A stretch of DNA of 29,363 nucleotides from a virus. The notes under the pieces are model-generated. The model made no database searches. It was not told the DNA's origin and saw only the letters and a program-made list of their open reading frames with translations. The position numbers and the translations under genes were made by a program. Below are positions 16,590 to 28,118 of this stretch, in pieces (position 1 is the first letter of the stretch; the number at the start of each line of letters is the position of its first letter). The DNA lies in IMG/VR virus record IMGVR_UViG_3300047382_000720, positions 1-29,363 of that record. The stretch is one strand, 5' to 3'.

Positions 16590-16804
16590 TGAGTTACGAA
16601 TTAGTAAAAAGATGGCTAGATGATTCAACTAGCGTTACTTCTGAAGAAATCAATGAGGCTTCTGATGTTATGTTACAGCAGATGCCTACAGGACCCACTA
16701 TATGCCTAATCGCAGCATTAAGTATTATAAAAAATAATGGAGTAGATGCAGTAGAAAATGTTAGGGAAAGAGTACAAAAGTACGAACAAGAAAATAATTC
16801 TTGA
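16589..16804 (+). CDS. small helical protein after the fibre genes, 71 aa
   Basis: The ATG overlaps the preceding stop (TAATG). The protein is helical and mildly acidic, with a central PTGPTICLIAALSIIKNNG stretch and a C-terminal coiled segment (VENVRERVQKYEQENNS). The central hydrophobic part is too short and broken to call a firm transmembrane helix. Its TGA stop lies inside the -35 box TTGACA of the next module's promoter, which shows how tightly the genome is packed. The function is not recognised. A small chaperone for the fibre or a tail accessory protein are possibilities from position only. Confidence 0.6.
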   Translation: MSYELVKRWLDDSTSVTSEEINEASDVMLQQMPTGPTICLIAALSIIKNNGVDAVENVRERVQKYEQENNS

Positions 16805-16829
16805 CAACTTTGTCCAGACATGATATAGT
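16801..16829 (+). promoter_or_regulatory. sigma70 promoter of the exported-protein module
   Basis: TTGACA (16801-16806), a 17-bp spacer and TATAGT (16824-16829). The -35 box contains the stop codon of the previous gene. It drives the 16868-19971 cluster, which has no other strong promoter. Confidence 0.85.
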
Positions 16830-16867: not shown

Positions 16868-17398
16868 ATGAAATTAAGGTATTTACCCCTTCTCTGCTTA
16901 TCTTTAACAGCACTAGCTGCAGAGGACACAATAATTACAGAGTCGACTTCAACTAGTGATGTTAGTACTACTACTAAACTAGAGTCGCCACCCCCGTCAG
17001 CGATAACGCCGACAATGAATATATCCAACTCCGATCTCTGTACAGTCGGAGTTGCGGGTGCAGTGCAAACCCAGATACTTGGTATCAGCATGGGTACGAC
17101 CGTACGAGACATGAACTGTGAAAAATTAAAGAATGCGAAAACTTTGTACGATATGGGTATGAAAGTTGCTGCTGTGTCTATTATGTGTCAAGACGAACGT
17201 GTATTTGACGCAATGATGAATGCAGGAACTCCTTGTCCTTATGATGGCCTTATCGGAGAAGCAGCAAAAGCAGCCTGGATAGCCAACGTAGAAGAAACGC
17301 CTGTAGAAATTAAAGCAGAGGAGATAGTCGATGAAAAGACAAAGCAAACTCTTATGGGGCTTGGCAGCATCTTTGCTCTGCTCCTCCTCTTACTCTGA
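16868..17398 (+). CDS. exported protein with signal peptide and C-terminal membrane anchor, 176 aa
   Basis: Residues 1-18 (MKLRYLPLLCLSLTALAA) form a Sec signal peptide. A Ser/Thr/Pro-rich linker (about 20-50) follows, then a compact domain with four Cys (DLCTVGVAG, RDMNC, SIMCQDER, GTPCPYDG) that could form two disulfides in the periplasm. The last 15 residues or so (LMGLGSIFALLLLLL) form a hydrophobic C-terminal segment. I recall very similar Cys-patterned sequences (LCTVGVxGAVQTQILGIS) as unnamed proteins in marine phages. It opens a six-gene operon. The 3' end overlaps the next gene by 68 nt in another frame. The function is unknown; a surface-located role during late infection or a virion-associated envelope role is inferred. 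Confidence 0.75.
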   Translation: MKLRYLPLLCLSLTALAAEDTIITESTSTSDVSTTTKLESPPPSAITPTMNISNSDLCTVGVAGAVQTQILGISMGTTVRDMNCEKLKNAKTLYDMGMKVAAVSIMCQDERVFDAMMNAGTPCPYDGLIGEAAKAAWIANVEETPVEIKAEEIVDEKTKQTLMGLGSIFALLLLLL

Positions 17399-18176
17399 TA
17401 CAGTTTACGGGCAATCAAATATAAATGCCTATAACTGGGCAATGCAAAATGTAATACCTCAGCAAGCAGGTCTTACTATACAAAATATAATATATAAATA
17501 TACAGTAGAGAAAGAAGTAGAAGATGCTATGTTAGTGCATATTTCAAACGAAGATGCAATTAACGGAGGTTATATCTTTCGAGCAACAGATGATTGGACA
17601 GGACTACCAGGAACTACTGTTAAGAAAATTAAACCTGCCTCTCAGTTACCAATAGAACATTGGGGAGCAGGATCTATAGAAGTAGAGGGGACAGGCTTAG
17701 TTAAAGACCCTTCTGTTGTTTATAACTGGCAATACGAACCTTGTTTCGACCCACAGTCCGACCCTACTTGTCCAGGTTATATGATACCTTATAATTTAGA
17801 AGATATACTGCCAGTAGTAAACGACCCTCTTGAAGATCAATATGTTCAAGAGCAGCTAGAAAGACAAGCACAACTAGATGAAGAAGATGAAATCCAAAGA
17901 AAAGAACGTTTAAAGAAAAATAAGAAGAATATGGAAAAACTTCTTGGAGGAATTAATACCAGATTGATGTCAGACCTTGCAATGGTTCAAGAAGCGGCAT
18001 ACTTTTCGGTAAACCTATTTCCAACTTCATACTACGATACCATAGGTGGTGGAGTATATGATGATGTCTTGCAACTAATAGATGCAGAGTTGCCCGACAA
18101 TAAAGATGGAAAGCGAGTGAACTACGCTCAACAAAAACTGCATGAAGAAATGATACAATCACAATATGATAATTGA
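17331..18176 (+). CDS. exported protein with signal peptide and coiled coil, 281 aa
   Basis: The start at 17331 lies inside the previous gene but is well supported: AGAGGAG ends 7 nt upstream, and the first residues make a Sec signal peptide (MKRQSKLLWGLAASLLCSSS, cleavage probably near SYS-D). A Cys is present in that region, but the residues before it (Ser-Leu-Leu) do not make a lipobox. The mature protein is acidic with a Tyr/Asp-rich middle part (three Cys near EPCFDPQSDPTC). A charged coiled coil (about 180-215, rich in Glu, Lys and Gln) follows, then a C-terminal helical domain. I do not recognise it. It is expected in the periplasm or envelope with its operon partners. Confidence 0.7.
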   Translation: MKRQSKLLWGLAASLLCSSSYSDTVYGQSNINAYNWAMQNVIPQQAGLTIQNIIYKYTVEKEVEDAMLVHISNEDAINGGYIFRATDDWTGLPGTTVKKIKPASQLPIEHWGAGSIEVEGTGLVKDPSVVYNWQYEPCFDPQSDPTCPGYMIPYNLEDILPVVNDPLEDQYVQEQLERQAQLDEEDEIQRKERLKKNKKNMEKLLGGINTRLMSDLAMVQEAAYFSVNLFPTSYYDTIGGGVYDDVLQLIDAELPDNKDGKRVNYAQQKLHEEMIQSQYDN

Positions 18177-18212
18177 TTATCGAGGGTGCTTCGGCACTTA
18201 TGAGATTAGACT

Positions 18213-18704
18213 ATGAAAAAATCTTTGTTAGCAGCCGGACTTTTACTTTCTAGCGCAGCTTTTGCTAATGTTCCTATTACAGGTTCTGTAGCCTCAAAGT
18301 GTGTAATTAATGTAGATACTCCAGGCGTTTATGGTAACCCATCTGCTAGTGTACTAAGTACCGCTCCTTCGGACGGTGGTGTTGTACCTGTAGTTCGTTA
18401 CGATATTATTAGCGCAGAGCTTTACAAAGCTAAGATTAGCTATCCTGAATCTTTTACAAGTAGTCCTTCTTTGAATGACGTTGTAAACTGGACAGGGGGT
18501 GTAACAGTAAGTCAAACTTCTGATGAATCCATGGCAACATTTGAAACCAACAAAGTAGAGTATAATAACACTACTGAGTATGAATTAGATGTGCAAGGAA
18601 GCGTTTGGTTTGAAGTTACTTCATCTGCCGACTATGGTTATGATAAATCTTTCCCTGGTGGAGAGTATCAAGCAACTGTAACTGCGGAGTGTATTGCACT
18701 ATAA
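18213..18704 (+). CDS. exported beta-rich, pilin-like protein, 163 aa
   Basis: Residues 1-19 (MKKSLLAAGLLLSSAAFAN) are a textbook Sec signal peptide with an AFA cleavage site. The mature part is a beta-sandwich-like sequence starting VPITGSVASKCVINVDTPGV and ending in QATVTAECIAL, with one Cys near each end that could form the single disulfide typical of fimbrial or spore-coat-U-like subunits. A UUCG hairpin (18186-18197) precedes it in the mRNA, and the next gene overlaps by TAATG. The pilin comparison rests on length, Cys placement and the N- and C-terminal patterns, and is a hypothesis. It could also be an unrelated phage envelope or decoration protein. Confidence 0.7.
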   Translation: MKKSLLAAGLLLSSAAFANVPITGSVASKCVINVDTPGVYGNPSASVLSTAPSDGGVVPVVRYDIISAELYKAKISYPESFTSSPSLNDVVNWTGGVTVSQTSDESMATFETNKVEYNNTTEYELDVQGSVWFEVTSSADYGYDKSFPGGEYQATVTAECIAL

Positions 18705-19078
18705 TGCGATTCTGTATTGTATTACTTGGCGTGTTAACTCATGGTTTCATTTGGAGCCATGAGTTAACTCCCACTTATCCTGAACTAAAAACATCTTACC
18801 TGTCAGGAGTTCTTAAAGCAGAGATGCATCTATTTAATAGTCGAAAGGATATTAACTATTATTCAGTTTCAGTCTATGATAAAGACTGGAAGCCTGTAAA
18901 ATTTGCTACGGAAAGCAAAATTATTCAAATGGATTATCTAGATCATAGAGATATAGAAGTCTATGTGCGTAAAAAAGATCAAGAAAAAGCACACTATATT
19001 TGTACTAAATCAAAAATCCTAAAAGGTAAGAGCGCACCTGCATTGGTCGCATCAAGGATTTGTTCAAAAATAAAATAA
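18704..19078 (+). CDS. exported beta-rich protein, chaperone-like hypothesis, 124 aa
   Basis: The chosen start is ATG 18704, overlapping the previous stop (TAATG). A TTG 15 nt earlier in frame would lie inside that gene and gives no better signal peptide. Residues 1-18 (MRFCIVLLGVLTHGFIWS) are a Sec signal. The mature protein begins HELTPTYPEL, has beta strands such as NYYSVSVYDKDWKPVKFA and ends with two Cys (YICTKSK and RICSKIK) that may pair. I recall HELTPTYP-type sequences from marine phages, unnamed. Its strand pattern, resembling the first Ig domain of periplasmic pilus chaperones, and its place after a pilin-like gene suggest it may act as partner or chaperone. This is a weak inference. 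Confidence 0.7.
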   Translation: MRFCIVLLGVLTHGFIWSHELTPTYPELKTSYLSGVLKAEMHLFNSRKDINYYSVSVYDKDWKPVKFATESKIIQMDYLDHRDIEVYVRKKDQEKAHYICTKSKILKGKSAPALVASRICSKIK

Positions 19079-19087
19079 GAGGCAACT

Positions 19088-19510
19088 GTGAAAAAACTAA
19101 TATTATCTATACTCCTAGTGAGTAATGCGGCGTGGGGACAAGGATCACTGAACTTGAACATCCCTCAAGCATCTCAATCTCATGGAACAGATAAAATTAG
19201 AGCAGGTAACGTTGACTGCCAGAATTCTATAGGTTCTGGTACTAACTTTGAGTTTGGGGTAGTTGGAATTATTGAACAGGGTGATGAAATGTTCAAACCT
19301 CAAATCCAAACATACGAAGATCAAGAATTTCGAGACGTAGGAGTATACGCTCGCATAAATATTCCTATCGGTGGCCCAAGCGAACGCATCAACTGTAACT
19401 CTTTGTATCAGTTGGAGCTAACAAAGAAACGTCTAGAAGTAGAAAAGCTACAACGTGAGGTTCAACAATTACGTCAGCTTCAATTCACAGACGATGTTGA
19501 GGAAAATTAA
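19088..19510 (+). CDS. exported protein with C-terminal coiled coil, 140 aa
   Basis: The start is GTG 19088 with AAGAGG 5 nt upstream. Residues 1-17 (MKKLILSILLVSNAAWG) form a Sec signal peptide with cleavage before QGSLNLN. A beta-rich part (GTNFEFGVVGII, DVGVYARINIPIGG) and a Cys pair (Cys44, Cys103) follow, then a helical coiled coil (about 105-133, ELTKKRLEVEKLQREVQQL). There is no lipobox. The 'GVYARINIPIG' strand looks like a membrane-facing beta strand of an outer-membrane protein, but one strand pair is not enough to claim a barrel. It may contact the next gene's coiled coil across the envelope. No family is recognised. Confidence 0.7.
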   Translation: MKKLILSILLVSNAAWGQGSLNLNIPQASQSHGTDKIRAGNVDCQNSIGSGTNFEFGVVGIIEQGDEMFKPQIQTYEDQEFRDVGVYARINIPIGGPSERINCNSLYQLELTKKRLEVEKLQREVQQLRQLQFTDDVEEN

Positions 19511-19512
19511 AA

Positions 19513-19971
19513 ATGGCAGAATTTGAAATTGCAGGAATGACTTTTAAAGGCGGGAAGATGGCGGTAATATTAACTGCTCTTTCTACTCTCGGAGGTGCTA
19601 GCTGGGCAGGTTTTGAGTTTTATAAAGATTACATGGATATGAAAGAAATTGTACAGAATATCGATGTAGACGCTATTGAAGCTCGAAATCGAGTTATTGA
19701 AACTAAACTTGATAATGCCATAGAGTATACACGAGATATTAAATCGGGTCTACGAGATGATATTCTTAGTATCGAAAAACAAGCAGATCGCGTAGAAGAT
19801 AAAGCTCGTAATATGGAAGAAAAAGTACGAGATATGATAGACAAAGCAAGCGAACGTTTTGAAACAAGACGAGACTCATTAATGTCTGACAATGCTAGAG
19901 ATTTAAAAGAATTAGAAAAACGATTTAGCGATAAGTTACAAAAAGCACTTGATAACCCGCTTGCAGACTAG
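19513..19971 (+). CDS. membrane-anchored coiled-coil protein, 152 aa (i-spanin-like topology)
   Basis: It starts 2 nt after the previous stop. An N-terminal transmembrane segment (about residues 13-34, GKMAVILTALSTLGGASWAG) is followed by a short charged turn and a long, highly charged coiled coil (about 48-145). This shape, N-in with a periplasmic coiled coil and about 150 residues, is that of an inner-membrane spanin (Rz type), and a long rod could cross the periplasm. However, no outer-membrane lipoprotein partner with a lipobox is seen next to it, and the preceding gene has an ordinary signal peptide. Alternatives are a scaffold for the exported operon or a structural anchor. It is the last gene of the module. 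Confidence 0.7.
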   Translation: MAEFEIAGMTFKGGKMAVILTALSTLGGASWAGFEFYKDYMDMKEIVQNIDVDAIEARNRVIETKLDNAIEYTRDIKSGLRDDILSIEKQADRVEDKARNMEEKVRDMIDKASERFETRRDSLMSDNARDLKELEKRFSDKLQKALDNPLAD

Positions 19972-19989: not shown

Positions 19990-20018
19990 TTGACAATATA
20001 ACCCTAACTTAGTATAAT
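19990..20018 (+). promoter_or_regulatory. sigma70 promoter of the packaging module
   Basis: TTGACA (19990-19995), a 17-bp spacer and TATAAT (20013-20018) are a perfect consensus. The ATG of the small terminase gene starts 8 nt after the -10 box, so the transcript is expected to have no leader. Confidence 0.9.
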
Positions 20019-20689: not shown

Positions 20690-20758
20690 ATGCACTGTGC
20701 AAGTAAAGCAAAAAAACGCAAAAAGAAAAAGGGCGGTAAAAAACGTCCGAGCTACTAA
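20690..20758 (+). CDS. tiny polybasic peptide, 22 aa
   Basis: This very short frame was chosen because its ATG follows a GGGG stretch overlapping the previous stop, and its own stop overlaps the next start (TAATG). It encodes MHCASKAKKRKKKKGGKKRP then SY; half of the residues are Lys or Arg. It begins a chain of basic small genes between the terminase subunits. Peptides of this kind may bind DNA or RNA, or neutralise packaged DNA. No family is recognised, and expression needs proof. Confidence 0.5.
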   Translation: MHCASKAKKRKKKKGGKKRPSY

Positions 20759-20910
20759 TGAGGTATAAGACTAAAAGAGCTGCAAGAAAAGCAGCAAAAC
20801 GTTTAGGGCTTAAAGGTATTCACTCACATGGCAGGGGAAAAGCAAAAACCTATATGGCAGGCAGTACGCATAAAGCCTATGAGAACGCCAAAAAACGGAG
20901 AAAAAAATGA
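20758..20910 (+). CDS. small basic protein, 50 aa
   Basis: The ATG overlaps the stop of the 22-residue peptide, and the TGA overlaps the next ATG (ATGA), so the gene sits in a translational chain. The product is strongly basic: MRYKTKRAARKAAKRLGLKG at the N terminus, a His/Gly/Arg-rich turn (SHGRGKAK) and a Lys/Arg tail ending KKRRKK. There is no hydrophobic segment. I do not recognise it. The charge and the company of similar proteins suggest binding to nucleic acid during packaging, or a virion-internal role. Confidence 0.6.
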   Translation: MRYKTKRAARKAAKRLGLKGIHSHGRGKAKTYMAGSTHKAYENAKKRRKK

Positions 20911-21134
20911 TCGAGATTTATGAAAAAAGAGGGAACTGGTGCTATAGAGATCAACAGGGAAAACTATTTAAATTTAACACCGAAGCCGAAGCTAAGAGCT
21001 CTTTAGGTTACTTAGAGCCAAAGGAGTTTGAATATGCCAGCGAAAAAGAAAACGAGGAAGGCGAAGAAAAAACCAATACCGACAAACAAGAAACTGTATT
21101 CAACAGTAAAAGCAGCAACAAAAAGAAAGTTTAA
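20907..21134 (+). CDS. small protein with acidic C-terminal half, 75 aa
   Basis: A clear GGAG (20897-20900) lies 6 nt before the ATG. The N-terminal half has an IYEKRGNWCYRDQQGKLFKF pattern, a small beta-like domain reading residues W, Y, G and F at regular spacing. The second half is very acidic (EKENEEGEEKTNTD) with a final KKKV. The 3' 101 nt overlaps the next gene in another frame, where the same bases encode a Lys-rich start. The function is unknown. The beta-like first half, similar in look to small phage 'EIYEKRGKW..' proteins, might be the true functional part. Confidence 0.6.
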   Translation: MIEIYEKRGNWCYRDQQGKLFKFNTEAEAKSSLGYLEPKEFEYASEKENEEGEEKTNTDKQETVFNSKSSNKKKV

Positions 21135-21222
21135 AGTTTATCCTTCTGCTTATGCAAATGCCTACCTTGTAAAAGAGTATAAGAGAAGAGGCGGTAAGTA
21201 TCGTATGGGAGTTAAAAAGTGA
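21034..21222 (+). CDS. small basic protein with YPSAYANA..VKEYKRRGGKY motif, 62 aa
   Basis: The chosen start is ATG 21034, with AAGGAG (21021-21026) 7 nt upstream; an in-frame TTG 6 nt earlier has no such spacing. The N terminus is MPAKKKTRKAKKKPIPTNKK, then KFKVYPSAYANAYLVKEYKR with RGGKYRMG near the C terminus. I recall this VYPSAYAN...YKRRGGKY pattern from small basic proteins of marine phages and large DNA viruses (DUF5872-like neighbours), none with a known role. It lies 101 nt inside the preceding gene and overlaps the next gene by 4 nt (GTGA). Nucleic-acid binding is plausible by charge. Confidence 0.65.
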   Translation: MPAKKKTRKAKKKPIPTNKKLYSTVKAATKRKFKVYPSAYANAYLVKEYKRRGGKYRMGVKK

Positions 21223-21503
21223 AATCTCGTAAAAGCGGACTTAGTAAATGGTTTAAAGAAAAATGGGTAGATATATCCCGACCTAAAAAAGGTGGGGGCT
21301 ACCACAAATGCGGAAGAAAAAAAGCAAAAGGAAAAGGATATCCTAAATGTGTACCAGCAGCAAAAGCAGCTCGTATGACAGCCAAGCAGAAAAGATCAGC
21401 TATTCGCAGAAAGCGTGCAGCCGGTAATCCTGGAGGCAAGCCACGTAATGTAAGTACATTCGTGAAACGGAGAAAAAGCAGTGGCCGCAAGAAAAAAAGG
21501 TAG
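21219..21503 (+). CDS. basic protein resembling DUF5872, 94 aa
   Basis: The start is GTG 21219, overlapping the previous TGA, with GGGAG 7 nt upstream. The sequence has LSKWFKEKWVDISRPKKGGG then a two-Cys segment (YHKCGRKKAKGKGYPKC), followed by VPAAKAARMTAKQKRSAIRR and a Lys/Arg-rich tail. From memory this is the layout of DUF5872, a small basic family in phages and large DNA viruses with a conserved 'GLSxWFKEKWVD' start and spaced Cys. The family has no known function that I can state. A Cys pair with this spacing may bind zinc. It overlaps the next gene by 23 nt. Confidence 0.65.
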   Translation: MKSRKSGLSKWFKEKWVDISRPKKGGGYHKCGRKKAKGKGYPKCVPAAKAARMTAKQKRSAIRRKRAAGNPGGKPRNVSTFVKRRKSSGRKKKR

Positions 21504-21789
21504 AAAAAAACCAGACTCTCGTTTAAAAAAAGCAAGAGTTAAAGGCTATAATAAGCCTCGTCGCACTCCAGGACACCCTAAAAAATCACACATTGTTGTG
21601 GCAAAAGTAGGCAATAAGATTAAGACTATTCGCTTCGGCCAGCAGGGAGCTAAAACGGCAGGGAAGCCGAAGGCTGGAGAGTCTGATAGAATGAAAAAGA
21701 AACGTGCGTCGTTCAAGGCGAGACACGCAAAGAATATAGCTAAAGGCAAAATGTCGGCAGCATATTGGGCGGATAAAGTAAAATGGTAG
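21481..21789 (+). CDS. basic protein with SFKARHAKNIAKGKMSAAYW motif, 102 aa
   Basis: The start is GTG 21481 with CGGAG about 8 nt upstream, inside the previous gene. The protein is highly basic and ends with SFKARHAKNIAKGKMSAAYW then ADKVKW. An IRFGQQGAKTAGKPKAGESD segment lies in the middle, and the N terminus is AARKKGRKKPDSRLKKARVK. I recall the C-terminal 'FKARHAKNI..GKMSAAYWA.KVKW' pattern from conserved phage proteins of unknown function (DUF6321-like). There is no membrane segment. The shared position with other basic proteins between terminase subunits suggests a role with DNA at packaging, but that is inference. Confidence 0.65.
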   Translation: MAARKKGRKKPDSRLKKARVKGYNKPRRTPGHPKKSHIVVAKVGNKIKTIRFGQQGAKTAGKPKAGESDRMKKKRASFKARHAKNIAKGKMSAAYWADKVKW

Positions 21790-22100
21790 AAGACACTAAT
21801 TATCATCCAGCAGACACAAATGGTGATGGTAGCGTATCAAAAGAAGAAGAAGCATTATATCTCGAATTTAAACGCAAAGAACTAGAAGATGCAGATGCTA
21901 TGCGAGACGCACAGCGTAATATGACATGGTTTGCACTTGGAGGATTACTATTATACCCATTTGCAGTTGTACTAGCATCATTAGCCGGCTTAGATCAAGC
22001 ACAAGATACCTTAGGAGATATGGCACCTACATACTTTGTAGCTGTTGCTGGTATAGTTGCAGCCTTCTTCGGTACTCAGGCAATGAAAGGTAAAAAATAA
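21783..22100 (+). CDS. EF-hand membrane protein, holin candidate, 105 aa
   Basis: Residues 11-22 (DTNGDGSVSKEE) are a complete EF-hand calcium loop: Asp, Asn, Asp and Gly at positions 1, 3, 5 and 6, Ser at 7, Val at 8 and Glu at 12. A charged helix (23-45) follows, then two transmembrane segments (about 48-67, WFALGGLLLYPFAVVLASLA; and 84-99, TYFVAVAGIVAAFFGT). Small phage proteins with an N-terminal EF-hand and two membrane helices are conserved in marine phages, as I recall, without a proven role. Two helices and small size fit a class II holin, and a calcium loop could set its timing. The ATG overlaps the previous gene, and its stop overlaps the DUF1353-like gene. Confidence 0.75.
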   Translation: MVEDTNYHPADTNGDGSVSKEEEALYLEFKRKELEDADAMRDAQRNMTWFALGGLLLYPFAVVLASLAGLDQAQDTLGDMAPTYFVAVAGIVAAFFGTQAMKGKK

Positions 22101-25763: not shown

Positions 25764-26071
25764 CTAGTTTAGGAAAAAAAATACGAATAAATAAAAATAG
25801 AAATATTGAAAAGTTATCTCATTATTTTATAGAACAAGGAAAAATATTAGAAGAAAAAGAATATGGAGAGGTCTCAAAAAGAGAAAAACCTTTAGGGCTT
25901 CCCAATTTAGTTTCTGTATTTGGCAGTTACGAAGCCATGTTAAAAGAGTTAGAATTAGGTCCTTTGGGTAAAGAAGTTATAGCTTTGAAGCCAAAACCTA
26001 AAAAGCCAAAAGCACCAGCTAAACCGAGAGTGGTAAAGCCTGCTAAAGCAAAGGAGAGTAAAGATGAATAA
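25760..26071 (+). CDS. small Lys/Pro-tailed protein between portal and protease, 103 aa
   Basis: The start is GTG 25760, overlapping the portal TGA, with a GAAGAAGAG run just upstream. Its TAA overlaps the next gene's start region by 8 nt. The first half is helical and basic (IRINKNRNIEKLSHYFIEQG), with a LGLPNLVSVFGSY segment in the middle. The last 30 residues are a Lys/Pro/Ala repeat-like tail (KPKPKKPKAPAKPR). I do not recognise the family. The location suggests a small head protein, a scaffold accessory or a decoration factor, but the highly charged tail could also bind DNA. Its Lys/Pro tail is low-complexity and may be disordered. Confidence 0.6.
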   Translation: MTSLGKKIRINKNRNIEKLSHYFIEQGKILEEKEYGEVSKREKPLGLPNLVSVFGSYEAMLKELELGPLGKEVIALKPKPKKPKAPAKPRVVKPAKAKESKDE

Positions 26072-28118
26072 GTTGTTTAATCTTACATCCACATTTAAGT
26101 CTCATGAAGCAGACGATGGATCTGTAATGATACGAGGAATGGCTAGTACAGCTGACTTTGATCGCGCGGGTGATTCCATTTCAGCAGAAGCCTGGACTAA
26201 GGGTGGATTATCAAATTTTGAAAAAAATCCAATTATCTTGTTTAATCACGATTATGACAAGCCAATTGGTAGAGCTACGGGGTTGAAAGCTGGTCCCGAT
26301 GGCTTGGAACTGGAATGTAAAATTAGTAAGGCTGCGCCTGCTAATGTTGCACAATTAGTTAAAGACGGTGTTCTTGGAGCCTTTTCTGTTGGTTTTCGAG
26401 TCAAGGACGCTGATTACTTAAAGGAAACCGACGGACTAATGATTAAGGACGCTGAGTTGTTTGAGGTATCGGTAGTATCTGTACCATGCAATCAGTCAGC
26501 TACTTTTTCGCTCGCGAAGTCTTTTGACTCAGATAAAGAGTACGAAGAATTCAAAAAAACTTTCACAAATCGTGTAGATCTAGCCGGTCAGTCTCTGGCT
26601 AAAGACGAAGTTAATACTTCTAGCGTAGCTAGTGACACACCGAAAAGCGCGGAGAAATCCGCAGATCAGGAGATCAAGATGGATAATCAAAACATCGACT
26701 TGGAAGCTTTTGCAAAGAAAGTAGCAGAAGACACTGCCGCTAAGATTGCTATGAAGCAAGCCGAGCAAAAAGCAGCTGACGAAGCCACCGCTAAAGCAGC
26801 TCAAGAAGCAGAAGAAGCGAAAGCTTTAGAAGCACAATCAATTAAAACAGTTATCAACTCTGGTGTAGAATCAGGTGTTGAAAAACTTATGGGCGACGTT
26901 GAAGCTAAACTAGCTGAAAAAGACGCAAACTTACAAGAAGTAATCGGTTCTTTCCAAAAAGAACTTGAAGAGAAGAAAGCTGAAATTTCAGCAATGCAAA
27001 ACAGCAAAAAATCTTTCTCTGATCGTGGTTCAGACCTTTCTTCTTTCGGTAAAGACTTCCTCAATGCTCACGTATTAGGTAAAATTACTGGTAAAGGTCT
27101 TTCTGGTACAGACTATGGTAAGTCATTACTAGAAAAAGCTGGCGAAACTTCTTATACTGCTAACAACCCAGCACAGGCTCAGCCAATTGATACTTTGGTT
27201 TCTCAAACTTTTGAAGAAGATGTACGTCTTCAACAACAAGTTGCAGGTTTATTCCGAGAAATCCAAGTAAACTCAGGTGCAACCATTCTACCAGTAGTTG
27301 GCGATACTAACTTCGCTGAATTCTCAAGTGGTGGTGTCTCTCCAGGTACTAATAGCCTAGCAGCTAAAGGCCAAGCTTCAAGTACTGACTTCCCAATCAC
27401 TTCAGTAACTGCGTATGCCGAGCGTCTAATCTCTGGTACTTTCCTACCAGCAGATACTGACGAGCAAATCGTTCTTAGCATCATTCCAATGTTGACATCC
27501 GCTCTAGCACGTGCTCATGCACGAGCAATTGATAAAGCTTGTCTGTTTGGTTATGGTACTGCTAACAAAGGTCTAGTTGGTACTGCGGGTGATTACACTG
27601 CCGATGCTGCAGCTGGTGGTTATGCAGCTAACACTGGTGCATTCAGTGGCACTGCGGGCGTACTAAAAGCAGTTGACCTTCTTAACATGAGAGGTAAAAT
27701 GGGTTCTTATGGTATTAATCCTGCGGACCTAGCTTACATCGTAAGTGTTGAGCAGTATCACAATCTAATGTCAGATGATAACGGCTTCTCTGATATTTCA
27801 GAAGTTGGTAATGATCTAGCTACTAAGATTACTGGCCAAGTTGGTTCTGTATACGGTACTCCAGTAGTTGTTAGTGATCAACTAGCGGATGCTGATACTA
27901 ACCAAACTGATAATGTTGCTAAACTTGAAGTAGGTGCTATTGCAGTTAACCGTAACTCTTTCGTAATTCCACGTCTACGTGGTGTGTCTATTGAGACAGA
28001 TTACGAAGTTGCGAACCAGCGTACTGCGCTTGTTGCTTCTCAATCTCTTGGCTTTACCCAAGTGGTTGGTGGTACTACTGCAGCTAACCGTGTTTCTTAT
28101 ACAGAAACAGCTGACTAA
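26064..28118 (+). CDS. prohead protease-scaffold-major capsid fusion, 684 aa
   Basis: Residues 1-165 resemble the HK97 prohead protease (peptidase S78): NHDYDKPIGRA with His62, GAFSVGFRV with Ser108, and ELFEVSVVSVPCN with Glu134 as likely triad. Residues 206-315 form an Ala/Glu/Lys-rich coiled coil typical of the scaffolding delta domain. From about 320 comes the HK97-fold capsid protein (SFGKDFLNAHVLG; PVVGDTNFAEFSSGG; RGKMGSYGINPADLAYIVS; VYGTPVVVSDQLAD). All three jobs, usually in two genes, are on one reading frame. An internal ATG at codon 206 (nt 26679) has AGGAG 6 nt upstream, so a 479-residue scaffold-capsid product without protease is likely. The protease should cut itself and the scaffold off during maturation. 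A strong terminator follows. Confidence 0.93.
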   Translation: MNKLFNLTSTFKSHEADDGSVMIRGMASTADFDRAGDSISAEAWTKGGLSNFEKNPIILFNHDYDKPIGRATGLKAGPDGLELECKISKAAPANVAQLVKDGVLGAFSVGFRVKDADYLKETDGLMIKDAELFEVSVVSVPCNQSATFSLAKSFDSDKEYEEFKKTFTNRVDLAGQSLAKDEVNTSSVASDTPKSAEKSADQEIKMDNQNIDLEAFAKKVAEDTAAKIAMKQAEQKAADEATAKAAQEAEEAKALEAQSIKTVINSGVESGVEKLMGDVEAKLAEKDANLQEVIGSFQKELEEKKAEISAMQNSKKSFSDRGSDLSSFGKDFLNAHVLGKITGKGLSGTDYGKSLLEKAGETSYTANNPAQAQPIDTLVSQTFEEDVRLQQQVAGLFREIQVNSGATILPVVGDTNFAEFSSGGVSPGTNSLAAKGQASSTDFPITSVTAYAERLISGTFLPADTDEQIVLSIIPMLTSALARAHARAIDKACLFGYGTANKGLVGTAGDYTADAAAGGYAANTGAFSGTAGVLKAVDLLNMRGKMGSYGINPADLAYIVSVEQYHNLMSDDNGFSDISEVGNDLATKITGQVGSVYGTPVVVSDQLADADTNQTDNVAKLEVGAIAVNRNSFVIPRLRGVSIETDYEVANQRTALVASQSLGFTQVVGGTTAANRVSYTETAD
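26668..26681 (+). promoter_or_regulatory. internal ribosome site and ATG for a protease-free capsid product
   Basis: AGGAG (26668-26672), 6 nt, then ATG (26679-26681), in frame with the fusion at codon 206. It lies exactly between the protease domain and the scaffold coiled coil. Use of this start would give many capsid copies per protease copy. Confidence 0.65.

Follow-up and report, generated by a model that had tools for sequence, protein, structure and literature searches.

The six-gene operon and its export signals

The window, i.e. the whole stretch of DNA analysed, is the 29,363-base IMG/VR virus record IMGVR_UViG_3300047382_000720, from a marine phage with a T5-like large terminase encoded in the window. 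Six open reading frames (ORFs), here g1 to g6, are arranged head to tail on the plus strand at positions 16868-19971. A first-pass annotation of this DNA described these as a six-gene set under one promoter, five genes having Sec signals and the sixth a membrane anchor and coiled coil, and as the best candidate for an undescribed system; all six genes were confirmed. The product of g1 (16868-17398) is exported and contains a Ser/Thr-rich linker, an invariant four-Cys domain, and a hydrophobic C-terminal tail. The start of g2 (17331-18176) overlaps the end of g1 by 68 nt and its exported product has a middle part that is presumably rich in beta strands and contains a single conserved Cys pair, a charged helical stretch, and the conserved tail AQQKLHEEMxxxQY. 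An exported pilin-like beta-sandwich with Cys30-Cys160 is encoded by g3 (18213-18704), followed by g4 (18704-19078), encoding an exported single-domain immunoglobulin (Ig)-like protein that resembles the N-domain of PapD-type chaperones. From a GTG start, g5 (19088-19510) encodes an exported protein with Cys44-Cys103 and a C-terminal coiled helix. The last gene, g6 (19513-19971), encodes an N-terminal membrane helix and then a coiled coil of about 110 residues ending DNPLxx.

The sole operon promoter is a sigma-70-type site on the plus strand at 16801-16829 (TTGACA-17-TATAGT, extended -10 with TG, 11/12 match). Promoters scoring at least 11/12 are present 5′ of g1 in 37 % of relatives, versus 0 % of shuffles, and 5′ of g2-g6 in 0 %. 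A perfect sigma-70 promoter (19990-20018) starts the next unit, 5′ of the terminase small subunit gene. Because promoters flank g1 and g6, the g1 site is kept in relatives, and none is found 5′ of g2-g6, it is well supported that the six genes are one operon with clear borders, from 16801 to approximately 19971. The single promoter proposed for all six genes therefore stands.

Signal peptides were called using a home-made rule based on a hydrophobic core, a positive N-terminus, and a -3/-1 site. The rule is positive for g1-g5 and for g6, due to its membrane helix, and for none of the 21 other genes in the window. It is also positive in at least 92 % of the homologues (g1, 86/93; g2, 96/101; g3, 89/93; g4, 87/88; g5, 84/86). 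The Cys columns of these homologues come in pairs and hardly vary, with four in g1 and two each in g2, g3, g4, and g5, whereas the g6 homologues have no Cys. Together, the signal peptides and the nearly invariant paired Cys, as against Cys-free g6, strongly though indirectly indicate that the oxidising periplasm is where g1-g5 fold and that g6 differs. Based on its flanking charges, g6 probably has an N-in, C-periplasmic topology. The signal rule and the Cys pattern thus agree with the five Sec-signal genes and the anchored sixth first described. When the sequences were read by eye there was no lipobox Cys at the cleavage site in g1-g5 and no lipoprotein signal in any of the six.

Conservation of the operon and its two modules

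Scans of viral contigs, which give the best 80 loci per query and on which conclusions cover relatives down to approximately 40 % identity in g4, found more than 300 loci with a g4-like gene and more than 560 with a g1-like gene. Every retrieved g4 locus with enough flank also carries g1 (115/115), g2 (128/128), g3 (138/138), g5 (142/142), and g6 (124/124), and the gene order is the same in all 117 complete loci, 85 of which are non-identical. The first-pass annotation had made its proposal depend on the six genes occurring together in relatives, as they do without exception in the sampled loci, and on the genes not each having a known unrelated role; no family of known function was matched. 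The fibre genes upstream are swapped freely, those of the window being present in only 0-8 of 40 relatives, so no single fibre type goes with the operon.

It is well supported that the operon joins two separable modules, g3-g4-g5 and g1-(g2)-g6, which are found apart elsewhere. In Vibrio phages, g3, g4, and g5 are in the same order without g1, g2, or g6, and the chaperone-like homologue of g4 is present in 179 Vibrio phage records. This link came first through a weak g5 match and was then confirmed by profile comparison, with profile-profile expectation values (E) between the window family and the Vibrio family of 4e-13 for g3, 6e-8 for g4, and 2e-10 (1.8e-10) for g5. Mismatched control pairs reach approximately 1e-4 at best (lowest 8e-5), scores that apparently come from the signal peptide alone. 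The conserved segments of g5, EFGVVG...GVYARINIPIG, two short stretches, are read as a beta-hairpin. In the Vibrio loci read, the trio is directly 3′ of one large fibre-like gene family, in siphophages, podophages, and T5-like phages, and is often followed by a small lipoprotein gene. In Vibrio phage douglas 12A4 (L182, 4880-5300) the fibre-like gene and the small lipoprotein gene are kept, the pilin-like and chaperone-like genes are gone, and a g5 remnant is left, a natural loss.

Beyond Vibrio, g5 is clearly present in Erwinia phage pEp_SNUABM_01 and several Klebsiella jumbo phages (E 2.7e-13). In the loci read from Erwinia Vequintavirinae and Klebsiella jumbo phages, including FBKp24, g5 is between chaperone-like and pilin-like exported genes (L180, 4601-5824; L181, 4517-5789; L183, 3631-4942; L184, 3652-4902), and g5 and these look-alike neighbours lie in a region of small accessory genes that is separate from the structural genes and the lysis genes. 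The similarity of the chaperone-like gene to g4 is suggestive of homology, at E 1.6e-6 versus mismatched controls down to 8e-5. For the exported gene with the pilin-like layout, E 0.007, with mismatched controls as low as 8e-5, does not establish homology to g3.

The other module is found in a different set of phages. Homologues of g1 are present in Pelagibacter, Roseobacter, and N4-like phages and those of g6 in HTVC115P, CRP-810, and ctXG6705. Pelagiphages, roseophage CRP-810, and other marine phages have g1 and g6 homologues without g3-g5, and a different exported protein replaces g2. The pelagiphage gene in this place was rejected as a homologue of g2 (E 0.19), only the short tail of the HTVC115P protein matching. 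Pelagiphage-like contigs are very rich in g1 homologues (501 stretches); in the loci read (L026, 5785-8123; L190-L269), g1 is followed by an exported protein of 410-510 amino acids and then a membrane coiled coil ending KNPL.

Matches to protein families were found for g1 (phrog_20531, E 3e-15), g4 (phrog_25455, E 2.9e-6), and g5 (phrog_37374, E 6e-4) and no family match for g2, and scans against Pfam and NCBIfam gave no usable match for any of the six. Nothing significant was found in PDB sequence searches using profiles made from g2-g5 and from the Vibrio homologues, nor were there tblastn matches for window-family g2, g3, and g4 among isolate phages. A host origin of the g3-g4-g5 trio was rejected, because 84,980 species genomes of bacteria and archaea yielded no relatives. 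No description of such genes was found in the literature searched.

Downstream of the operon, some neighbours are kept: the terminase small subunit gene in 32 of 53 relatives and an EF-hand two-helix, holin-like gene in 41 of 53. In the window the latter is at 21783-22100; it sits between g5 and g6 in two other loci, L145 and L121, and L121 (9589-10924) also has two g6 copies. From the perfect sigma-70 site at 19990-20018, the packaging genes also look to be driven by host-type promoters. A run of short, very basic ORFs is found between the terminase subunits (20758-21789), of which that at 21481-21789 matches phrog_7595, where no function is assigned, and resembles the gene adjoining g6 in roseophage CRP-810. 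Further downstream (26064-28118), a prohead protease (Peptidase_S78) and a presumed major capsid protein are in a single ORF.

A predicted chaperone-like and pilin-like pair and its proposed role

Structure prediction, which the first-pass annotation had proposed as a check, led from g4 to PapD-type chaperones and from g3 to the pilins of chaperone-usher systems. The AlphaFold2 model of g4, with a predicted local distance difference test (pLDDT) score of 76, is an Ig-like sandwich. Of its 50 best Foldseek matches in the PDB, 42 are chaperones that act in the periplasm in the assembly of chaperone-usher pili (best E 1e-3, template modelling (TM) score 0.4-0.5). On this model, g4 has the fold of the PapD N-domain, as fold similarity only. 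At 124 amino acids, including the signal peptide, it is a single domain, as opposed to the approximately 200 amino acids of a two-domain chaperone. Its Cys100 and Cys120 are in the last two predicted strands, as in FGL chaperones.

The model of g3 has a pLDDT of 90.6 and chaperone-usher pilins make up 20 of its 50 best PDB matches, no match being below E 1e-3, the top matches being CfaB, followed by FimF, CsuA/B, the PapGII pilin domain, and FimG. Foldseek comparison with viral proteins gave no named match. Directly after the predicted cleavage site, the mature N-terminus of g3, NVPITGSVASKC (18267-18302, plus strand), has a donor-strand-like motif, phi-x-phi-x-G-x-V-x3-C. Among 68 homologues, I22 is conserved in at least 90 % and G24 and C30 are invariant; the Vibrio homologues have the same spacing, with S replacing G. 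We take this motif to resemble the N-terminal extension of FimA and FimG, the donor strand of classical pilins.

Each fold result alone is modest; together the two models point to one system, because separate searches of two adjacent genes name partner halves of it. It is therefore fairly likely that g3 and g4 are a pilin-like and chaperone-like pair. No usher (PF00577) was found in the window record or in 22 related records, with the Escherichia coli control positive, and the pair is thus predicted to be an usher-less, single-domain chaperone and pilin-like pair within a phage envelope-remodelling operon.

A conserved operon sends its products to or through the host inner membrane, including an apparent pilus subunit and a private chaperone without a secretion pore, so a refitting of the infected cell's envelope by the phage is probable. 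To the specific reading that the operon is an envelope-remodelling system built by the phage in the infected cell, a probability of about 0.4 is given. In such a system, g4 would lend a beta strand to g3 in the periplasm, completing the g3 fold, and g3 would then be passed to another strand, either its own conserved N-terminus, forming a short polymer, or a partner. An outer-membrane or periplasmic partner in this hand-over step may be g5, and g6, in concert with g1 and g2, may be an inner-membrane-anchored rod that spans the periplasm. The assembled proteins would alter the cell surface or its receptors, so that phages arriving later no longer adsorb, nor do the phage's own progeny when they meet debris.

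The first-pass annotation had listed envelope remodelling, a superinfection block, adhesion, and a lysis aid as candidate functions. A superinfection or receptor block is ranked first here and help in lysis second, although the block itself is proposed tentatively, with less than even odds. It is favoured because unrelated phages among the Vibrio loci read have the trio directly 3′ of a fibre-like gene family and because the g5 group of the Erwinia and Klebsiella phages is among accessory genes, not structural or lysis genes. In phage T5, the exported protein Llp blocks the phage's own receptor (PMC9586334), which is a precedent for the proposed role though its parts are different. Several points weigh against the envelope-remodelling reading. 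The fibre genes change in the window's relatives while the operon stays, which speaks against a block fitted to a single receptor. No lipoprotein is encoded in the window operon, and the lack of an usher leaves g3 with no evident path to the cell surface. Model confidence for g4 is moderate, the Foldseek E values are only approximately 1e-3 (g4) and 3e-3 (g3) with TM scores of 0.4-0.5, and neither g4 nor its Vibrio homologues match PapD_N (PF00345).

The main alternative is that g1, g2, and g6 take the place of spanins, disrupting or connecting the envelope layers at the end of infection with g3-g5 in a helper role, and that g6 is the inner-membrane coiled-coil rod. This is considered first among the rivals because some pelagiphage loci have lysis-like genes beside the g1 and g6 homologues and because the operon has a conserved holin-like neighbour. 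In three pelagiphage-like loci read (L229, L259, L269), the gene following the module is lysozyme- or M15 peptidase-like (by eye, partial sequence), and g1/g6 modules are near genes that look by eye like three-transmembrane-helix (3TM) holins in Mosig and MedDCM phages. The EF-hand gene, present downstream in 41/53 relatives and between g5 and g6 in two loci, also fits such a role, as does the i-spanin-like architecture of g6. However, none of the six genes encodes a lipoprotein partner, the lysozyme in the window's own relatives is often distant or on the opposite strand, such that a lysozyme adjoining the operon was rejected as a general rule, and the Erwinia and Klebsiella carriers have g5 outside any lysis region. 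A lysis accessory is possible, and rather unlikely.

Less probable again is a surface fibre, in which g3 would polymerise by donor-strand exchange so that infected cells adhere to one another or to new hosts ('sibling capture'). The pilin-like fold and donor-strand-like N-terminus of g3 fit this and the same proposal has been made for the curli genes of pelagiphages (PMC9599517), yet there is no usher in the 23 records and no known outer-membrane route, and the curli-carrying phage Melnitz showed no clumping (PMC9004378). That the six are unrelated exported accessory genes merely under a shared promoter is very improbable; although the two halves separate in other phages, all six co-occur in the same order in all sampled relatives and the g3-g4-g5 order is repeated in Vibrio phages. 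Least probable, slightly below this, is virion decoration, in which g3 would mature with disulfides in the periplasm and join a strand of a virion fibre after lysis: both the window and the Vibrio loci read have the trio 3′ of fibre genes, and pilin-like domains require a donor strand, but no candidate strand is shown in the fibres, g3 is constant while the fibres are swapped, and exported virion parts are unusual in tailed phages.

Comparison with known systems

The usual view is that tailed phages export few proteins; in this operon, an entire exported set stays together even though the surrounding fibre genes are swapped. Hundreds of phage contigs contain parts of the operon, as do cultured phages of Vibrio, Klebsiella, Erwinia, and Pelagibacter, with the products annotated as hypothetical proteins. 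The view of the first-pass annotation that this is an undescribed exported system is supported; the g3/g4 pair, the two modules, and the carriage by cultured phages had not been seen there. Tentatively, the operon may belong to an unrecognised class of phage envelope system, an usher-less chaperone and pilin-like machine found across unrelated phages of Gram-negative hosts that would assemble protein in the host periplasm or at its surface during infection. If g3 and g4 do work as chaperone and subunit without an usher, this would be a new use of donor-strand chemistry, and what marine phages do to the envelope of an occupied cell would become testable.

Among known systems, two-component spanins (Rz/Rz1) include an i-spanin that g6 resembles in sequence layout, as a probable inner-membrane-anchored coiled coil. 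Unlike these, the operon has no o-spanin lipoprotein and has five exported partners; without a lipoprotein signal in any of the six, it is not a standard spanin pair. Likewise, T5 Llp is an exported phage protein acting on the host envelope (PMC9586334), the role proposed here, but it is one lipoprotein that jams FhuA, whereas the operon encodes six proteins, none of them a lipoprotein. As in chaperone-usher pili (PapD/FimC, FGL-type Caf1M, and archaic Csu), a gene for a predicted periplasmic Ig-like chaperone adjoins that of a pilin-like subunit and the g3 N-terminus is donor-strand-like. The operon differs in having no usher, one chaperone domain instead of two, and no Pfam match, in being phage-encoded, and in being joined to g5 and to g1, g2, and g6. 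Due to the absence of an usher in the 23 records and of a PapD_N match, it is not assigned to the chaperone-usher systems.

The nearest known kind is phage-borne curli. Curli (type VIII secretion) genes are carried by pelagiphages and OM43 phages (PMC9599517, PMC9004378). The CsgG, CsgF, and CsgA/B families were not matched in the Pfam and NCBIfam scans of the six proteins, and the operon is chaperone- and pilin-like rather than an amyloid with a CsgG pore; both, however, are exported clusters of surface-appendage type in marine phages, with functions that are equally unsettled.

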